The translations under genes were made by a program, and so were the position numbers. The notes beneath the pieces are model-generated. The model worked only from the letters and a program-made list of their open reading frames with translations. It did not search any database and was not told the DNA's origin. 20,447 nucleotides of DNA from a virus: positions 1 to 20,447 of IMG/VR virus record IMGVR_UViG_3300049783_000235. One strand, given 5' to 3'. Positions 1,175-13,264 of the stretch are shown here, one piece after another (the first letter of the stretch is position 1; each line of letters begins with the position of its first letter).

Positions 1175-1182
1175 TATTTATA
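1175..1182 (-). promoter_or_regulatory. T4-like late promoter (TATAAATA)
   Basis: Exact match to the T4 late promoter octamer on the minus strand, 28 nt upstream of the ATG at 1146. It follows directly after the terminator of the preceding gene. Confidence 0.75.
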
Positions 1183-4370: not shown

Positions 4371-6674
4371 TTAAATTGCACATGCTTCGCATTCTTCTTC
4401 ATCGTCTTCGAATGTGCTTGCTGGTAATGCTTCTATTGTTGGTTCGTCTTCTAATTCGCTTGGATCTGTTTTGTAATCGTATGTGTTCTGATAGTAACTT
4501 GTTTTCCAACCTAGTTTGTAAGTTGTTAGCAAGTCGTTTATCATCTTACTCATTGGCACTTCGTTGTTTTCAAAGTGCGTTGGGTTGTAACTCCAGTTAC
4601 CACTAATTGCTTGATCAAAGAACTTCTGCATAACCGCTACTACATTAATGTAGCCTTCGTTGCTTGGCATGTCCCACAACAGTGTGTAGTGATTCTTTAG
4701 CGTTTGATACTGCGGAACAATCTGCTTAAGAGGCCCTTTCTTTGACTTCTTAACGGACAAGTATCCTCTAGGTGGTTCGATTCCGTTTGTTGCGTTCGAC
4801 ACAACGGAGCTGCTCTCTGAAGGCATTTGTGCGGACAATGTGCTGTGCCGTAGACCGTGCTCCTTAATGTCATTGCGTAGGCTATCCCAATCATAATTTA
4901 ATTTATTCTCCACTACTGTATCTACATCTTTCTTATAAGTGTCAATAGGAAGGATGCCGTCAGCGTATTTAGTACGATGGAAGTACTCACAAGGGCCTCG
5001 TTCCTGCGCTAATTTGTTACTTGCTTTAAGTAAGTAGTACTGGAATGCTTCGCTCAAGTCGTGTACTAGTTTCCACGCTTTAGGATCGTCATACTTAACA
5101 TGATTCTTTGCAAGGAAGTGTGCTACTCCAATGTAACCTACGCCCAAACTGCGGCGGGCCTTTGTACTAATCTCAGCGGCTTTAATTGGGTACTTTTGGT
5201 AATCAATAATTTCTTCTAATGCTCTTACAGCTAACTCACATAGTTCGCCTAAGTCGTCTAAGTTCCTTAGTGTACCTACATTAATAGCACTAAGAATACA
5301 TAATGCAATTTCGCCTTCTGGATCATCAATGTGATTAAGTGGCTTAGTTGGTAGTGTAATTTCTTGACACAAGTTGCTCATATAAACTTTATCTTTAAAC
5401 GAGCTGTGTGTATTACAATGGTCTACGTTCATAATATAGATACGTCCTGTTTCTGCACGTTCTTTAATTAATGCCGAAAACAAATCCATTGCTGATATAG
5501 TATGCTTCTTAATACTTGTAGCACGTTCATACTTTTCGTATAGTTCTTTAAACTTGTCAGCGTCACCAAAGTATGCTTCATATAATCCAGGTACATCATG
5601 TGGCGAGAACAAAGTTATATCGCCACCAGATAACAATCTTTGATACATTGTTAAGTTAAGTTGTATACTATAATCTAATTTACGCACACGATTGTCTTCA
5701 GTACCTTTGTTGTTCTTTAGTACAAGAATGTCTTCAATCTCTTGATGCCAAAAAGGAAAGTGTGTAGTTGCACTACCGCCACGTACTCCGTTTTGTGTAC
5801 AACAACGTACTGTGCTTTCAAACTTCTTTAAGAAAGGAATGATACCAGTGTGTGCCACTTCTCCGCCACGTATTTTCGCATTGACGCCACGTATGCGTCC
5901 AGCGTTAATGCCAATGCCTGCCCTTTGAGCAGTATACCTGCCGATAGCCATATCACTAGCAAAAATACTGTCAAGAGTGTCATCACTGTCAACAAGTACG
6001 CAACTTGCAAACTGGCGTACAGGCGTCCTGACTCCTGCCATGACTGGCGTGGGTATATTGATTTTAAAAAGTGAGGTCGCATCATAGTATCTCCTTACGT
6101 AATGCATACGTGTTTCTGCTGGATAGTTAGCAAACAGGGTTGCTGCAATCATCATGTACATGAACTGCGGCGTCTCAAATATTTGTCCATTAGAACGATC
6201 CTGTACGAGATACTTGTCTACTACTTGACGCAGTCCTGCATAGGTAAAGTTCTCATCACGCTTGTGACGTATGTAACTATCAAGTACTTCAATTTCTTCG
6301 CTAGTGTATGACTCAAGTATTGCAGGGTCATATACGTTACGCTCAATGTTTTGTTCAATGTTTTTCTGTAGTGTAATTGCTGTGTACTCGCCGAATACAT
6401 CTTTATTAACACCATAACTTAATAGTCTAGCAGCTGCATATTGATAGTTAGGAGCATCTAAGCTGATAAGATCATTTGCACTTCGTACAAGTATCTCTTG
6501 TATTGCACTTGTTGGCATGCCCTCGTAAAATTGCAAGTTTGCATTCATTTCGATTTGACTACTACTTACACCAGCAAGGCCTTCACAAGCAAATTCTACT
6601 ACCTTATGTATTTTATCAATGTTGATGTGTTCTTTGTTGCCGTCTCTTTTTATAATTTGAATGCCGTTTGACAT
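4371..6674 (-). CDS. nrdA: Ribonucleoside-diphosphate reductase class Ia, alpha subunit
   Basis: This full-length R1 protein has 767 residues. An ATP-cone regulatory domain covers about residues 1-95 (IIKRDGNKEHINIDKIHK). The catalytic barrel has C225 (FASCVLVDS) and C459 (EIALCILSAINVG) as the redox pair, with N434, C436 and E438 in NLCQEITLPT as the thiyl-radical site. Y727-Y728 (SYYQNT) is the radical-transfer pair. The C-terminal shuttle cysteines are C762 and C765 in ECEACAI, spaced by two rather than the four residues of the E. coli protein. GGAG is well placed before the ATG. All catalytic residues are intact, so this is an active enzyme, expected to pair with the NrdB encoded directly downstream. 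Confidence 0.96.
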   Translation of the reverse strand: MSNGIQIIKRDGNKEHINIDKIHKVVEFACEGLAGVSSSQIEMNANLQFYEGMPTSAIQEILVRSANDLISLDAPNYQYAAARLLSYGVNKDVFGEYTAITLQKNIEQNIERNVYDPAILESYTSEEIEVLDSYIRHKRDENFTYAGLRQVVDKYLVQDRSNGQIFETPQFMYMMIAATLFANYPAETRMHYVRRYYDATSLFKINIPTPVMAGVRTPVRQFASCVLVDSDDTLDSIFASDMAIGRYTAQRAGIGINAGRIRGVNAKIRGGEVAHTGIIPFLKKFESTVRCCTQNGVRGGSATTHFPFWHQEIEDILVLKNNKGTEDNRVRKLDYSIQLNLTMYQRLLSGGDITLFSPHDVPGLYEAYFGDADKFKELYEKYERATSIKKHTISAMDLFSALIKERAETGRIYIMNVDHCNTHSSFKDKVYMSNLCQEITLPTKPLNHIDDPEGEIALCILSAINVGTLRNLDDLGELCELAVRALEEIIDYQKYPIKAAEISTKARRSLGVGYIGVAHFLAKNHVKYDDPKAWKLVHDLSEAFQYYLLKASNKLAQERGPCEYFHRTKYADGILPIDTYKKDVDTVVENKLNYDWDSLRNDIKEHGLRHSTLSAQMPSESSSVVSNATNGIEPPRGYLSVKKSKKGPLKQIVPQYQTLKNHYTLLWDMPSNEGYINVVAVMQKFFDQAISGNWSYNPTHFENNEVPMSKMINDLLTTYKLGWKTSYYQNTYDYKTDPSELEDEPTIEALPASTFEDDEEECEACAI

Positions 6675-6705: not shown

Positions 6706-6713
6706 TATTTATT
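6706..6713 (-). promoter_or_regulatory. Possible late promoter variant (AATAAATA) before nrdA
   Basis: AATAAATA on the minus strand overlaps the stop codon of the preceding gene, 32 nt before the nrdA ATG. One mismatch to TATAAATA. An early-type nrdA gene would not be expected to rely on this site alone. Confidence 0.3.
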
Positions 6714-7138: not shown

Positions 7139-8734
7139 CTAACTTCGTGAACGTATTTTAAAAGTTAATTTTCCTGAGTCGAGTTGATTGGTATATTTTA
7201 CCTGGGCACTCCATGCTGTTTCCAATTGGTTTAATGTTGCACTAAATTGCAAACTTGCACCTAATGAATCCAGTCCACTTATATCGTAATCATCCATAAT
7301 ACTAACGCTATTGCTCTCTCTGTTAACAAATACAGTCAAAGTTCCTGCTCTTGAAAACACTCGAGCGCCAACATCAGTTTTATACCAGTAGTCAATATCA
7401 AATGACTTAGTAGTATCTGCGGGCAATCTAAATAAAAGTTGCGGTGTGCCAATTTGGGCAAGGTCAACTTGTTCAGTGTATTCGTGTTCATAAAACGCAG
7501 GTCCTTCAACCTCTGGAATATATGGTTTAGTAACTATATATGCCTGATTAATACTTAAATTATACGTTCTATCAAACTCATTGTCAACTGAAATATTGCC
7601 TGATTCTCCAAATTTTATTATACTGTGAGCAACAGTTGCTTCACTGCCGCCATTGTTACCAACACTAGGACCAAATCTATTATTGATGCTAGAGTTACGT
7701 GTGCCATTTGCAATGTGAATTGCTTGTTGCTCTATCGTCTCAAAGTAACACTCTCTAATGTTGTTGTCGGTTGCGTTCGTTTGTCCGATTGTAGGTGTAA
7801 CACCTATTTCAATTGCCTTAGTAATGTTAAAGAACTTACATGAGTCAATTTCATTACGTGATATGTTGTGATCGCTTACTATCGCTTTACCTATAGAAAC
7901 AAACTCACAATCAATAAATCTATTGAATTCTGATCTTACAGCATTACTTTTACTTCTTATTTCAACAGCTGGATTAGTTGTTGAATTTGTTAATTTACTT
8001 CCTTCAAATTTTACATTTTCAAAGCGGCTATCACGACAGCTATTCAACTGTAGTAATTTTCCGTCATCTGATTCTGTTTGAAGTGTACAATCTTTAAATG
8101 AAACATATCTTGCACTGTTTGCATATGACATTGTAGGATCTGCATATATAGTAGCATTCACGCCATCATATGTTGTATCGCTTGATATAGTATCAAACAT
8201 TGTGATGTCGCCTGTCTTTATAAAGACAGTTTTCTCTTTGCCTGCGCCAACGATAGTTGCATATGGAGGTATTCTAATTGTTGAACTTATTCTGTATATC
8301 CCTGCTTCAACATGTAGTATTACTCTGCTCTGCGGGTTGTTACGTGTTGTGGGCTTTAAGTATAATTCGTATAATGCTTTCTGTAACTTTGTTGTAATAT
8401 CTGAGCCGTCACCTGTAATGCCAAATGATCTTACACTAACAATATCATCGAGTCTAGCATTAAGTGTGCGCTCTACAGCAACACCTATACCAGTATCAAT
8501 ACTACCCTTTTTATAAGAATATGTGCCTACTAGTTCGAACAAGTCATCATGCTCAGTAATTATCTTTGAATTACCTACTTGTGGTGCGCCTTCTGCGACA
8601 CTACCGTTACCTATGTAAAGTTCTTGTTCGTCAACAGCCCAGCCTAATTCTCCGCCAGCAAGTTGCGGGATGCCAGATCCTTGATTTGCTTGTCCTCTAC
8701 GGACTTGAATACGACTGATTTGTACTACGGCCAC
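7139..8734 (-). CDS. Tail fibre/tailspike with right-handed beta-helix
   Basis: This 531-residue protein starts at a GTG with GGAG 8 nt upstream. Residues 5-55 carry the short phage-fibre anchor pattern: IQVRRGQANQGSGIPQLAGGELGW-like residues, then ELYIGNGS, as in tropism-determinant N-terminal domains. Residues 100-130 read VRSFGITGDGSDITTKLQKAL, the start of the pectate-lyase-like beta-helix fold used by tailspikes. Many short N-x-I/F-x-x-C/F repeats follow to about residue 380. A beta-sandwich-like end domain covers about 410-531. No catalytic triad can be assigned by eye, so it may bind or cut a surface polysaccharide. It is probably the host-range protein and is driven by a CATAAATA promoter. 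Confidence 0.82.
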   Translation of the reverse strand: MAVVQISRIQVRRGQANQGSGIPQLAGGELGWAVDEQELYIGNGSVAEGAPQVGNSKIITEHDDLFELVGTYSYKKGSIDTGIGVAVERTLNARLDDIVSVRSFGITGDGSDITTKLQKALYELYLKPTTRNNPQSRVILHVEAGIYRISSTIRIPPYATIVGAGKEKTVFIKTGDITMFDTISSDTTYDGVNATIYADPTMSYANSARYVSFKDCTLQTESDDGKLLQLNSCRDSRFENVKFEGSKLTNSTTNPAVEIRSKSNAVRSEFNRFIDCEFVSIGKAIVSDHNISRNEIDSCKFFNITKAIEIGVTPTIGQTNATDNNIRECYFETIEQQAIHIANGTRNSSINNRFGPSVGNNGGSEATVAHSIIKFGESGNISVDNEFDRTYNLSINQAYIVTKPYIPEVEGPAFYEHEYTEQVDLAQIGTPQLLFRLPADTTKSFDIDYWYKTDVGARVFSRAGTLTVFVNRESNSVSIMDDYDISGLDSLGASLQFSATLNQLETAWSAQVKYTNQLDSGKLTFKIRSRS

Positions 8735-8763: not shown

Positions 8764-8771
8764 TATTTATG
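8764..8771 (-). promoter_or_regulatory. T4-like late promoter variant (CATAAATA)
   Basis: CATAAATA on the minus strand lies 30 nt before the tail-fibre GTG start and overlaps the stop of the nuclease gene. Seven of eight bases match the T4 late octamer. Confidence 0.55.
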
Positions 8772-9447
8772 CTTGCTTCTCATAATACATTTCGCAACGC
8801 TTCCACCACTCTTGAGCCCATGCATCAAACTCGTCTGGCCATATATCAAACTGTTGATATTCTAAATCACGTGAACACATAAAGATATGTCCTTCACGTA
8901 TATCAGTGCCATGTACTTCGTTGTGTGCTAGTGCATAAGCCGTCATTTGTAGGTAGTAGTCATATACCCACTCAGGCTTCTTAGGTTTGTTAGTTTGCTT
9001 AAAGTCCATTATGCAAGGCTGTCCTTTGTATTGTCCTACAAGGTCAGTTGTTCCTGCATAGATACCTGGAACATATAAAGGAACTTCGCTTCCCCATATC
9101 TCATCTACATCACCCATTGCTTCATCGCGTATTACACATGCCATTGCGTGTGCTTTTTGTGCATATGGATTACTTCCACAAGTTGGCCATTCAGCAAACT
9201 CTATATAATCTTCTAGGTATTTGTGCATACGTGTGCCCACGCCAGCTGCTTCGGTTACAATCTCTTTTGCTTTTGCTTCGCCAACACGTTTGCGCCATGC
9301 GATTAAGTGTGACTTATCTTTTGTAGCGTCAAGTATAGTTGTTACACTTGCTACAGGTACACCACCTGGTGCGGCGTACTTACGTTTACCGTTTACTTCA
9401 ACACGTTTAAGTCGTTCGTATTTGTACTTCTCTATAATTAAGCTCAA
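8767..9447 (-). CDS. PD-(D/E)XK exonuclease, RecB/Cas4-like
   Basis: This 226-residue nuclease shows the RecB-family order: GVGTRMHKYLE with H75, E121 (GSEVPL), D135 (GTTDLVGQY), D148 and K150 (IMDFKQTNK), and Q167 with Tyr171 (YYLQMTAYA). These are the metal-binding and catalytic residues of the superfamily. No four-cysteine Fe-S cluster is visible, unlike true Cas4 or AddB. It starts at a TTG overlapping the nfu stop (TTGA), with a strong AAGGAG 8 nt upstream inside nfu, which supports this rare start and coupling to nfu. Likely roles are DNA end processing in recombination or replication, or breakdown of host DNA. Confidence 0.85.
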   Translation of the reverse strand: MSLIIEKYKYERLKRVEVNGKRKYAAPGGVPVASVTTILDATKDKSHLIAWRKRVGEAKAKEIVTEAAGVGTRMHKYLEDYIEFAEWPTCGSNPYAQKAHAMACVIRDEAMGDVDEIWGSEVPLYVPGIYAGTTDLVGQYKGQPCIMDFKQTNKPKKPEWVYDYYLQMTAYALAHNEVHGTDIREGHIFMCSRDLEYQQFDIWPDEFDAWAQEWWKRCEMYYEKQA

Positions 9448-9803
9448 TCTTTAGGCTCCTTTGGTAATTGTAAGTCTGTGTCATAGTCTTCTAAATGAAT
9501 ACGCTGCATGCCAAATGGATCTGACATGTATGGATCGACTCCTGAGTTTGGATCGTCTACTCCAACAACAGTTGTTACTTCGGGGATCATACCAGTAAGA
9601 GTTCTTTCAATGCCCTCTTTTAAAGTCATTGAAGACATAGCACAACCAGAACAAGCACCGCTCATTTCGAGTGTTACAACTCCGTCATTGTAATCAAGGT
9701 AATTTACTACGCCGCCGTGTCCTGCTACTGCTGGCTGAACATAAGTTTCTAATACTTGTTTAATATTTTCAACTATTGAATCATACGTGTTTTTATCAGT
9801 CAT
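9444..9803 (-). CDS. Nfu/NifU C-terminal-type Fe-S cluster carrier
   Basis: This 119-residue single Nfu domain has GHGGVVNYLDYNDGVVTLEM at about 29-48, then SGACSGCAMSSMTLKEGIE with the cluster-binding C51 and C54. The rest is a short acidic tail not typical of NfuA. The ATG at 9803 is chosen because GGAG lies before it and because the longer in-frame start at 9854 would fall in the promoter -35 box. The family passes 4Fe-4S clusters from the scaffold to target enzymes. A phage copy is an auxiliary metabolic gene, perhaps supporting host Fe-S enzymes during infection. A sigma70 promoter and a hairpin over the ribosome site control it. Confidence 0.9.
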   Translation of the reverse strand: MTDKNTYDSIVENIKQVLETYVQPAVAGHGGVVNYLDYNDGVVTLEMSGACSGCAMSSMTLKEGIERTLTGMIPEVTTVVGVDDPNSGVDPYMSDPFGMQRIHLEDYDTDLQLPKEPKD

Positions 9804-9849
9804 AAAAAAGCTCCTATTAGTGTATATAATAACACCAAATAAGAGCTTT
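9804..9849 (-). terminator. 12-bp stem with T6 tail: terminator and ribosome-site switch
   Basis: On the minus strand AAAGCTCTTATT (9838-9849) pairs with AATAGGAGCTTT (9807-9818), with one T-G wobble. A run of six T follows and then at once the nfu ATG. It ends transcripts coming from the structural gene upstream. The right arm holds the nfu ribosome site AGGAG, so read-through RNA would hide it. RNA starting at the promoter inside the hairpin would lack the left arm and leave the site free. Confidence 0.7.
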
Positions 9850-9854
9850 GTCAA
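9826..9854 (-). promoter_or_regulatory. Sigma70-type promoter for nfu
   Basis: TTGACA (9849-9854 on the complement), a 17-nt spacer and TATTAT (9826-9831) give a near-consensus promoter. The predicted start is near 9819, about 16 nt before the ATG and inside the loop of the hairpin described at 9804-9849. Confidence 0.75.
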
Positions 9855-9862
9855 CCGTTAAT

Positions 9863-10177
9863 TTAAAGTCCTGCGCCTACGTCTGTAGCGTTCTTAGCCA
9901 TATCACCGACAGTGTCAGCATTGCTTGGAGTAGTGCTACCTACTTGATCCATAGAGCTATCATTGATAGTTACACCTTGTGGATCAAACTTAACTAACTT
10001 TTGGAGTTGTGGATTGTTATCGTAGGTTGCTTTAAATGAATTGTAATCAAACTGTGGTACACCAGCTTTTTTCATATAGCCATTAAGTTTGTTCCACGTA
10101 ATAGTGGTGCCAGGCTTAATTGTTTTGATTATTTGTACTAGTGTACCAGACTCGTCTAATGCTTCGGCTATTTTAGC
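9863..10177 (-). CDS. Frameshift-encoded C-terminal domain (-1 frame)
   Basis: This is an open frame of 104 codons with no ATG or ribosome site at its beginning. It runs on in the -1 frame from the slippery site at the end of the 10168-10929 gene. It reads AKIAEALDESGTLVQIIKTIK, then PGTTITWNKLNGYMKKAGVP, a coherent soluble domain, then FDYNSFKATYDNNPQLQKLV and a polar Ser/Asp/Asn-rich tail ending DVGAGL. An internal ATG at 10075 would give 70 residues but has no good ribosome site and would cut the domain. The best reading is a 355-residue fusion made by -1 frameshifting. The alternative is a one-base deletion, real or from sequencing, in a run of nine A. Confidence 0.6.
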   Translation of the reverse strand, partial: AKIAEALDESGTLVQIIKTIKPGTTITWNKLNGYMKKAGVPQFDYNSFKATYDNNPQLQKLVKFDPQGVTINDSSMDQVGSTTPSNADTVGDMAKNATDVGAGL

Positions 10178-10929
10178 TTTTTTTTTGAACGCTGTACACT
10201 TTCACGCTTTTCTCTGCCAGCTTCTTCTTCGCCGCCTGCAGCTGCGTCATCAGCACCAAAGTCATCGCCCATGTCGTCCATACCATCTACTGGCTCATCA
10301 ACACCTGGCTCTAACTCATCAGTTGGTTCCATGTCACCGCCTAAGTCGTCCATGCCATCATCGCCCATTGGCTCTTGCATATCGCCTTCGCCTGTTAGCA
10401 TACCAACACCACTAGTAAGTGCAGCTCGTGTGCCTTCCATTTCAGCATATAGTTGCTCTAGTGCAGGCTTAATTGTATTAGTAAATGACTCAGCAGCTTC
10501 GCTACCCATTTCATCTCTAATAGCATCTGCAAGTTCTAGCATTGACTCAGTTTGCATTTCTGCTGTGTCTTCCATCCAACCCGTAACACGGTCTACCATG
10601 TCTTTAGCAGCCATTACTAGTTCAGCTTTATCTTCTTCGCCTTCAGTAAGTGTTGATTCGATCATTGGTTCGTCAATGTCAGCTCTTTCGCTAATCTCAG
10701 CATTTAAAACATCTAGGAAAAGTTTTGACTTTTGGTATGCTGGATTTTGAGTTGAATTAAAACTTTCTTTAGTTTCAACTTGACTAAGTGATGTTCTTAG
10801 TTTATTCTGTGCATCTTGAAGTTGCCCTAGTGTAAACTCTTCTAAGTTTAGACGCTGGCCAAACTTCTTAGCAAGGCTTTCGTTCAAGCCTTTTGCTGTA
10901 ATTGGTTTTGAAATTTCTCTTATATTCAT
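10168..10929 (-). CDS. Acidic structural-type protein (pre-frameshift product)
   Basis: The zero-frame product is 253 residues. It starts MNIREISKPITAKGLNESLA and has a helical middle (about 25-165) with conserved-looking QNPAYQKSKLFLDVLNAEI and MVDRVTGWMEDTAEMQTESM. A long Asp/Glu/Gly/Met-rich linker follows (about 180-235). The end is basic: AGREKRESVQRSKKKLK. Helical plus acidic low-complexity composition resembles phage scaffold or core proteins, and I recall similar marine-phage virion proteins. The start peptide shares its form with six nearby genes (see findings). A GATAAATA promoter lies 36 nt upstream and the ribosome site is AGGAAAG. The zero frame ends four codons after a run of nine A, where a -1 slip would extend it by 104 residues. 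Confidence 0.8.
   Translation of the reverse strand: MNIREISKPITAKGLNESLAKKFGQRLNLEEFTLGQLQDAQNKLRTSLSQVETKESFNSTQNPAYQKSKLFLDVLNAEISERADIDEPMIESTLTEGEEDKAELVMAAKDMVDRVTGWMEDTAEMQTESMLELADAIRDEMGSEAAESFTNTIKPALEQLYAEMEGTRAALTSGVGMLTGEGDMQEPMGDDGMDDLGGDMEPTDELEPGVDEPVDGMDDMGDDFGADDAAAGGEEEAGREKRESVQRSKKKLK
10177..10183 (-). promoter_or_regulatory. A AAA AAG slippery heptamer (-1 frameshift site)
   Basis: In zero-frame phase the minus strand reads A-AAA-AAG, the efficient bacterial -1 slippery sequence known from dnaX, inside a run of nine A. A small stem GCTA-AAA-TAGC follows directly, and the zero-frame stop lies three codons on. No clear Shine-Dalgarno stimulator is seen at the dnaX spacing. 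Confidence 0.55.
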
Positions 10930-10964: not shown

Positions 10965-10972
10965 TATTTATC
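10965..10972 (-). promoter_or_regulatory. T4-like late promoter variant (GATAAATA)
   Basis: GATAAATA on the minus strand, 36 nt before the ATG at 10929 and just past the stop of the 10975-11403 gene. Confidence 0.6.
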
Positions 10973-12833: not shown

Positions 12834-13230
12834 ATACTTTTAGAAAAACGATATTATTATAACGTGAATTTGCTGTCTGAAATATCGGTTTTTTAAATGT
12901 AGCTGTCTCGCTTAAATTATTAATAAAAGGTACTAAGTTATAGTCTGCTGTTAACAGTTCTAAGTCAACGCCGCCCTCACGCTCTATTTCAAATTCTACA
13001 GTCCACACAGTATGTTTACCAGTAAACTCTTTTCCAAACACTTTGGTATCTTCTTCTGTAGATGTTACTACAACAGATACAGGATTGCTTCTTAAGCCCA
13101 ATGTATTAAGCATAGTCATATAGTTTTGATGTTGCTTATACATGTAACTATCTTCTGTCCTACGTGCATGTGTAGGTGTAATGTCAACAAGTGTTTTTAA
13201 TTGGAATCTCATACTATTACTTATAGCCAT
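12832..13230 (-). CDS. Unknown protein of the structural block; start uncertain
   Basis: The product is 132 residues from the ATG at 13230 or 126 from the ATG at 13212. It reads MRFQLKTLVDITPTHARRTE, later LGLRSNPVSVVVTS, and a central beta-rich GKHTVWTVEFEIEREGGVDL. I recall similar short proteins with an F/YQLKTLVDIT start in marine T4-like phages, which would favour 13212. The first ATG follows directly on the T-run of a strong terminator and has no ribosome site. A TATAAGTA octamer lies between the two ATGs. If that promoter is real, only the second ATG can be used from it, with almost no leader. The ending FQTANSRYNNIVFLKV is beta-like. Confidence 0.72.
   Translation of the reverse strand: MAISNSMRFQLKTLVDITPTHARRTEDSYMYKQHQNYMTMLNTLGLRSNPVSVVVTSTEEDTKVFGKEFTGKHTVWTVEFEIEREGGVDLELLTADYNLVPFINNLSETATFKKPIFQTANSRYNNIVFLKV
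13218..13225 (-). promoter_or_regulatory. Possible late promoter variant (TATAAGTA)
   Basis: TATAAGTA on the minus strand has one mismatch to TATAAATA and stands directly after the terminator at 13231-13264, as true promoters do at 530 and 1175. It lies inside the longer reading of the gene. Confidence 0.4.
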
Positions 13231-13264
13231 AAAAAAAGGGTCCAGTAAAAACTGAACCCTTTTA
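13231..13264 (-). terminator. Strong rho-independent terminator
   Basis: On the minus strand GGGTTCAGT pairs with ACTGGACCC, with one G-T wobble and a short T loop, followed by seven T. It ends the unit of the 13320-13694 gene and abuts the next ATG. Confidence 0.88.

Follow-up and report, generated by a model that had tools for sequence, protein, structure and literature searches.

The window, i.e. the whole stretch of DNA analysed, is a whole IMG/VR record of 20,447 bases and represents a 20-kb fragment of an uncultivated aquatic virus whose hosts are bacteria. On its minus strand, positions 9444-9803 encode an Fe-S carrier of 119 amino acids with a NifU C-terminal domain (nfu; Pfam PF01106, E 6.9e-25). 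Immediately 3' of nfu, in the window as in every relative examined, lies a gene for a PD-(D/E)XK exonuclease (8767-9447, minus strand). As its start overlaps the nfu stop, the exonuclease gene is the second gene of the nfu promoter and would share the control of nfu. Upstream of nfu, also on the minus strand, a 70-aa ORF (9863-10075; stop at 9865-9863), whose position is kept in relatives, ends 8 nt ahead of the -35 box described below. It is preceded by a gene for a virion structural protein (10168-10929, minus strand; PHROG 14154), which is syntenic in relatives, and by the T4-type late promoter motif GATAAATA (10965-10972, minus strand), the presumed source of late read-through RNA. The order of virion structural gene, 70-aa ORF, sigma70-type promoter, nfu and exonuclease is constant in all relatives examined and is followed, where this region is in view, by a tail-fibre-like gene and nrdA. 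NrdA of the window's phage is cyanophage-like. Models for gp23 and the late sigma factor gp55 found no match in the available contigs, and the controls were silent as well. The tail-fibre-like gene of the window (7139-8734) encloses a perfect sigma70 promoter (TTGACA-17-TATAAT, 12/12; 7587-7559, minus strand), which also occurs in one relative.

The element studied here is placed on the minus strand between the 70-aa ORF and nfu and reads, from 5' to 3', TTGACA, AAGCTCTTATTTGGTGT, TATTAT, ATACACTAATAGGAGCTTTTTT, ATG. It starts with the -35 box TTGACA (9849-9854), which is followed by the spacer AAGCTCTTATTTGGTGT of 17 nt (9832-9848) and by the -10 box TATTAT (9826-9831) with a TG just before it. 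This sigma70-type promoter scores 11/12 against the consensus, and its TTGACA, 17-nt spacer and -10 box are kept at every one of the 24 distinct nfu loci that have a promoter. The same nucleotides form a hairpin. Its left arm (9832-9849) consists of the final base of the -35 box and the entire spacer and is missing from RNA of the nfu promoter itself, while the loop TATTATAT (9824-9831, 8 nt) consists of precisely the -10 hexamer and AT. The right arm (9806-9823) holds both the transcription start, which is predicted from the position of the -10 box to lie near 9819, and the Shine-Dalgarno (SD) sequence AGGAG of nfu (9815-9811), located 7 nt ahead of the ATG. A run of six T (9809-9804) completes a signal resembling an intrinsic terminator and leads directly into the nfu ATG (9803-9801). 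With a stem of -15.1 kcal/mol and the T6 run, the element reaches a moderate terminator d score of 5.7 according to a published formula.

A sequence-only reading of this stretch had described a promoter inside a hairpin with the -10 box in the loop, the ribosome site in the right arm, and T6 and the ATG behind it. Each of them was confirmed, with the minus strand as the coding strand. The stem exists as well, with a length of 17 pairs and one bulged U instead of the 12 bp stated. RNA covering 9870-9790 folds with -22.9 kcal/mol compared to -8.4 +/- 2.1 kcal/mol for dinucleotide shuffles (z -6.8), and none of 200 shuffles is as stable; for the stretch from TTGACA to nine nucleotides beyond the ATG, 0/1000 shuffles match the fold. 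A hairpin of the plus strand was rejected, as its fold z is only -1.6, and the hairpin is thus a feature of minus-strand RNA. The computed cost of opening SD and AUG amounts to 14-15 kcal/mol for RNA starting at 9849 or farther upstream and to 2.7-3.2 kcal/mol for every start from 9840 to 9817. Accordingly, the predicted energies place the SD in a paired state in read-through RNA and leave it unpaired in RNA started at the internal promoter, as in leaders of the T4 gene e type. Because the cost stays at about 3 kcal/mol over starts 9840-9817, the energy switch is insensitive to the exact start. Its sole requirement is that transcription starts 3' of the greater part of the left arm, as follows from the position of the -10 box in the loop.

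ATAAATA is the core of the T4-type late promoter. This core lies 20-45 nt ahead of ORF starts at six of eight sites in the window, 7/11 sites in the related contig G003 and 11/25 sites in G001, compared to a median of only 0-2 sites for permuted 7-mers at the same position. Motifs with this core are found at a fixed distance before ORFs at 10965-10972, 8764-8770, 6706-6712 and 1175-1181 (minus strand). The ORFs with a T4-type late motif include nrdA (4371-6674), while nrdB has a sigma70-type promoter at 4367-4339 instead; in T4-type phages, nrdA is usually an early or middle gene. Terminator hairpins that end in T7 and run directly into ATGNCTAAATA or a similar sequence occur in the window at 546-563 and approximately 13230-13260 (minus strand), and also at G001:24292, G001:42756 and G003:5671. 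At these sites a possible late promoter motif overlaps with both the terminator and the ATG, and the respective ORF has no visible SD.

Wherever the virion gene upstream of nfu is in view (20/20 loci), it has the motif GATAAATA before it, which makes late read-through into nfu plausible. It is therefore reasonable to infer that late RNA approaches nfu from the virion operon, and the sigma70-type promoters of the window's phage presumably act early. The earlier proposal that the timing known from T4 is reversed at this gene is thereby supported at the level of sequence, by the late motif in 20 of 20 loci and the sigma70-type promoter in 24 of 24, with the timing itself predicted from these promoter classes.

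Taken together, these features suggest a gate that probably restricts the expression of nfu and the exonuclease to their own promoter. RNA from the nfu promoter would start inside the right arm, could not form the hairpin and would be translated. Read-through RNA from the virion operon, supposedly late and derived from the GATAAATA promoter, would carry both arms. The hairpin together with T6 would terminate part of this incoming RNA, and in the remaining part the SD would be locked, with about 14 kcal/mol needed to open SD and AUG. As incoming RNA would be either terminated or silenced, the nfu promoter would be the only source of nfu and exonuclease expression. Start, timing, termination and silencing are predicted here from promoter motifs and computed folds.

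Among the nfu relatives, the hairpin is less widely distributed than the promoter. With a difference of at least 6 kcal/mol as criterion, 14 of the 24 distinct nfu leaders have an SD-hiding hairpin. It is absent in ten, namely L010, L023, L024 and L025, which form clade B, and L248, L259, L260, L262, L264 and L269. Clade B has no gate, yet its synteny and late motif are as in the window. Relatives of this clade also lack the T run, which is missing in several relatives, while L248 and L262 have retained the SD and the T run and have lost the left arm or lower stem, with the upper stem persisting. A TACTTT/AAAGTA pairing spotted by eye in clade B was rejected because its fold is not significant and provides no gating of the SD, and the clade was scored as hairpin-less. 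Since ten of 24 nfu leaders including a whole clade do without the SD-hiding hairpin, the gate is dispensable; as judged from these leaders, it is favoured at nfu and not essential.

Compensatory changes are found in the nfu alignment, where stem columns 20-35 hold GC in 13, AU in three and GU in two sequences, and columns 9-46 hold GC in eight, GU in three and AU in two, with five unpaired. The overall signal is modest, with two double-change pairs and a score reached by 24/500 shuffles in a test of 18 sequences that included five non-formers. A lack of stem conservation, which the sequence-only reading had named as a refutation, was not observed: 14 of 24 leaders have the hairpin, with some compensatory changes. 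Conservation is incomplete, however, and fails in clade B, L248 and L262. Regarded as a whole, that interpretation is partly supported.

Conservation of the element exceeds that of its flanks. The window and L243 share 96% identity over the 51 bp of the element, compared to 55% for the upstream 140 nt and 61% for nfu. The promoter spacers of the window and L004 agree at 16/17 positions, whereas the spacers of the nrdB promoters in these phages agree at 11/17. L264 and L267 have upstream flanks of 99% identity and nfu genes of only 77%, while in L259 and L260 the upstream region is 49% and nfu 99% identical. Near-identical upstream flanks (96-99%) are combined with diverged nfu genes (74-78%) in L264, L266, L267 and L259, with hairpin and non-hairpin leaders swapped. 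Thus, recombination seems to have used the promoter at nfu as a joint, as far as these comparisons of flanks indicate. A search for the element as a mobile repeat within one genome was negative, the promoter-SD pattern occurring once per genome, and the element itself is absent from all cultured phages of the collection searched.

Similar elements precede other genes. In a scan of ORF starts in the window and eight related contigs, a difference of at least 6 kcal/mol was found at 7/54 promoter-bearing starts compared to 6/438 control starts. Four of the seven belong to nfu, two to a 151-aa gene of the sister phages G003 and G007 and one to its 142-aa relative in G002. G003 and G007 belong to the lineage of the window, and their elements before the 151-aa gene differ in stem sequence. 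A wider search of IMG/VR used the pattern TTGACA-N17-TATNAT-N6..16-GGAG-N1..4-TTTTT. Among the distinct matches listed, 53/97 (55%) form an SD-hiding hairpin compared to 4/485 shuffled versions (0.8%). When the T run was not required, 12/128 of the matches listed form the hairpin compared to 8/640 shuffles, and the T run is missing from 11 of the 12. As the matches of one family are related to each other, these counts do not represent independent events. In the matches listed, the genes behind such elements encode Nfu, DnaJ, metallophosphoesterase, MazG, UvdE, dNMP kinase, UvsY, dUTPase and proteins of the HKSN family, and the stem sequences are unrelated across gene families. Hiding of the SD is common to all hairpin cases, and termination is not, because several of them lack a T run.

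The HKSN family, whose proteins of 98-151 amino acids share the C-terminal motif GIxTMHKSNAVP and have no known function, is very widespread in phages. Its genes are often located behind a consensus sigma70 promoter, and about half of the strong promoters lie within SD-hiding hairpins with covarying stems (loci G003:19632 (L099), G007:19945 (L228), G002:5887 (minus strand), G001:43508 and L273-L352). The covariation is strong, with 14 double-change cells compared to 4.8 expected and a score reached by 0/500 shuffles. In the sequences of named phages looked at, HKSN homologues are located within operons and no such element was found. Genes of the DnaJ type (L130, L218, L107, L186, L101, L132, L119, L128, L177, L197, L162, L192, L210 and L148) have a strong promoter in a hairpin with a T run; their GGAG and first ATG are 13-14 nt apart, with an ACG at the usual start distance.

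The same architecture could also be read as an intrinsic terminator of the virion operon that is overlapped with a promoter for compactness, with the pairing of the SD as a by-product and no translational control. The T6 run right behind the stem and the d score of 5.7 agree with this, as do the T run common to many of the pattern matches listed, the DnaJ-type elements, which have hairpin and T6 despite the large distance between GGAG and ATG, and the promoter early stem-loops (PeSLs) discussed below, whose stem-loops are described as terminators. However, the SD is also hidden where no T run is present, as at G003:19632, at nrdH of phage KVP40 and in 11 of the 12 listed hairpin matches of the unbiased scan, and formation of the hairpin necessarily occludes the SD. 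A pure terminator therefore appears rather unlikely, while still deserving consideration. Chance in combination with the constraints on promoter and SD, by which an A+T-rich leader beside a consensus promoter folds accidentally and is then inherited, would fit the lack of the hairpin in part of the nfu family and the weak covariation of nfu when taken alone. It is difficult to reconcile with the fold z of -6.8, the survey result of 55% compared to 0.8% among the matches listed, the compensatory changes in the two gene families nfu and HKSN, and an nfu promoter spacer that is better conserved than the nrdB promoter spacer of the same genomes; this explanation is disfavoured and highly improbable.

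The inverted repeat might also act as DNA: a dimeric regulator would bind GTGTTATTATATACAC, the palindrome that surrounds the -10 box, and the hairpin in RNA would be incidental. The upper stem, which survives in L248 and L262 where the lower stem is lost, would be compatible with such a site. The lower stem, however, is rich in G-U pairs (columns 8-47, 9-46, 10-45 and 13-42), as expected of pairing in RNA, and other genes of the same lineage have hairpins of unrelated sequence and identical geometry. The repeat is not common to different genes. Binding of a regulator is accordingly improbable. The gate on read-through RNA remains the preferred explanation. Beyond nfu, it is about as likely as not that these elements constitute a widespread class, as yet without a name, of gates that restrict genes of uncultivated T4-related phages to their own promoters. 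In this class, sigma70 promoters would lie in hairpins with the SD as right arm and an optional T run, and the gates would have evolved repeatedly before early-type genes such as nfu, DnaJ, dUTPase, MazG, UvdE, UvsY, dNMP kinase and the HKSN family, block late read-through and serve as exchange joints.

Because it is found ahead of many genes and is better conserved than its flanks, the element might allow a cheap prediction of early genes from sequence alone. A possible use is that of a portable insulated promoter in gene circuits. Good experimental models are available in the cultured T4-type phages RB49 and KVP40, in which SD-hiding hairpins precede modB (L232, 9420) and nrdH (L235, 36008), respectively. 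Both leaders likewise combine a promoter with an SD-hiding hairpin that RNA from the own promoter cannot form. They are single cases per genome, at other genes and with other stem sequences than the nfu element, and no description of them was found in the open-access literature searched.

Two known systems resemble the nfu element. PeSL (promoter early stem-loop) cassettes of T4-type phages were reportedly treated by Arbiol et al. in 2010 and Comeau et al. in 2014, and PeSLs are said to have been described for phage RB49. The definition used here draws on titles given in citing papers and was compared against the RB49 genome. By this definition, PeSLs are cassettes of early promoters and terminator stem-loops in T4-type phages that mediate gene shuffling (PMC4503421). 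Within the limits of this definition, the nfu element is similar in its intergenic position, its strong sigma70-type promoter with a terminator-like stem-loop, and the module exchange seen at its locus (L264/L267, L259/L260, and the element compared to its flanks in L243). In RB49, however, the stems enclose promoters and end before the SD, which is locked at only 1/63 strong promoters near starts (modB), whereas the right arm of the nfu element includes the SD and the T run. For this reason, the nfu element could gate translation as well.

The analogy to T4 gene e drawn in the sequence-only reading agrees with the literature. In T4 e, soc, 49 and I-TevI, read-through RNA conceals the SD in a leader hairpin, while RNA from a nearby internal promoter, devoid of the 5' arm, is translated (PMC3014915, PMC2988022). 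Leaders of the gene e type silence early or middle RNA and have a late internal promoter (TATAAATA), whereas the nfu leader would silence late RNA and has an internal promoter of the sigma70 type (TTGACA/TATTAT), with no late motif present in the element. The nfu element would therefore work like gene e and yet stands outside that late class. If this is true, the T4 timing is reversed, with the gene switched on early and kept off against late read-through RNA. Furthermore, descriptions of T4 e-type hairpins mention no T run of a terminator ahead of the ATG, while the nfu hairpin has T6. The architecture is not peculiar to the Fe-S carrier gene and is one case of a recurrent PeSL-related design, a point absent from the sequence-only reading. 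Based on the comparison with T4 e-type leaders, PeSLs, RB49 and KVP40, and with its novelty judged on the open-access literature, the nfu element is a PeSL-like cassette with a built-in SD that follows the logic of gene e with the promoter class swapped, so that a single element of about 54 bp unites the promoter-terminator cassette of PeSLs and the hidden ribosome site of the T4 lysozyme type.
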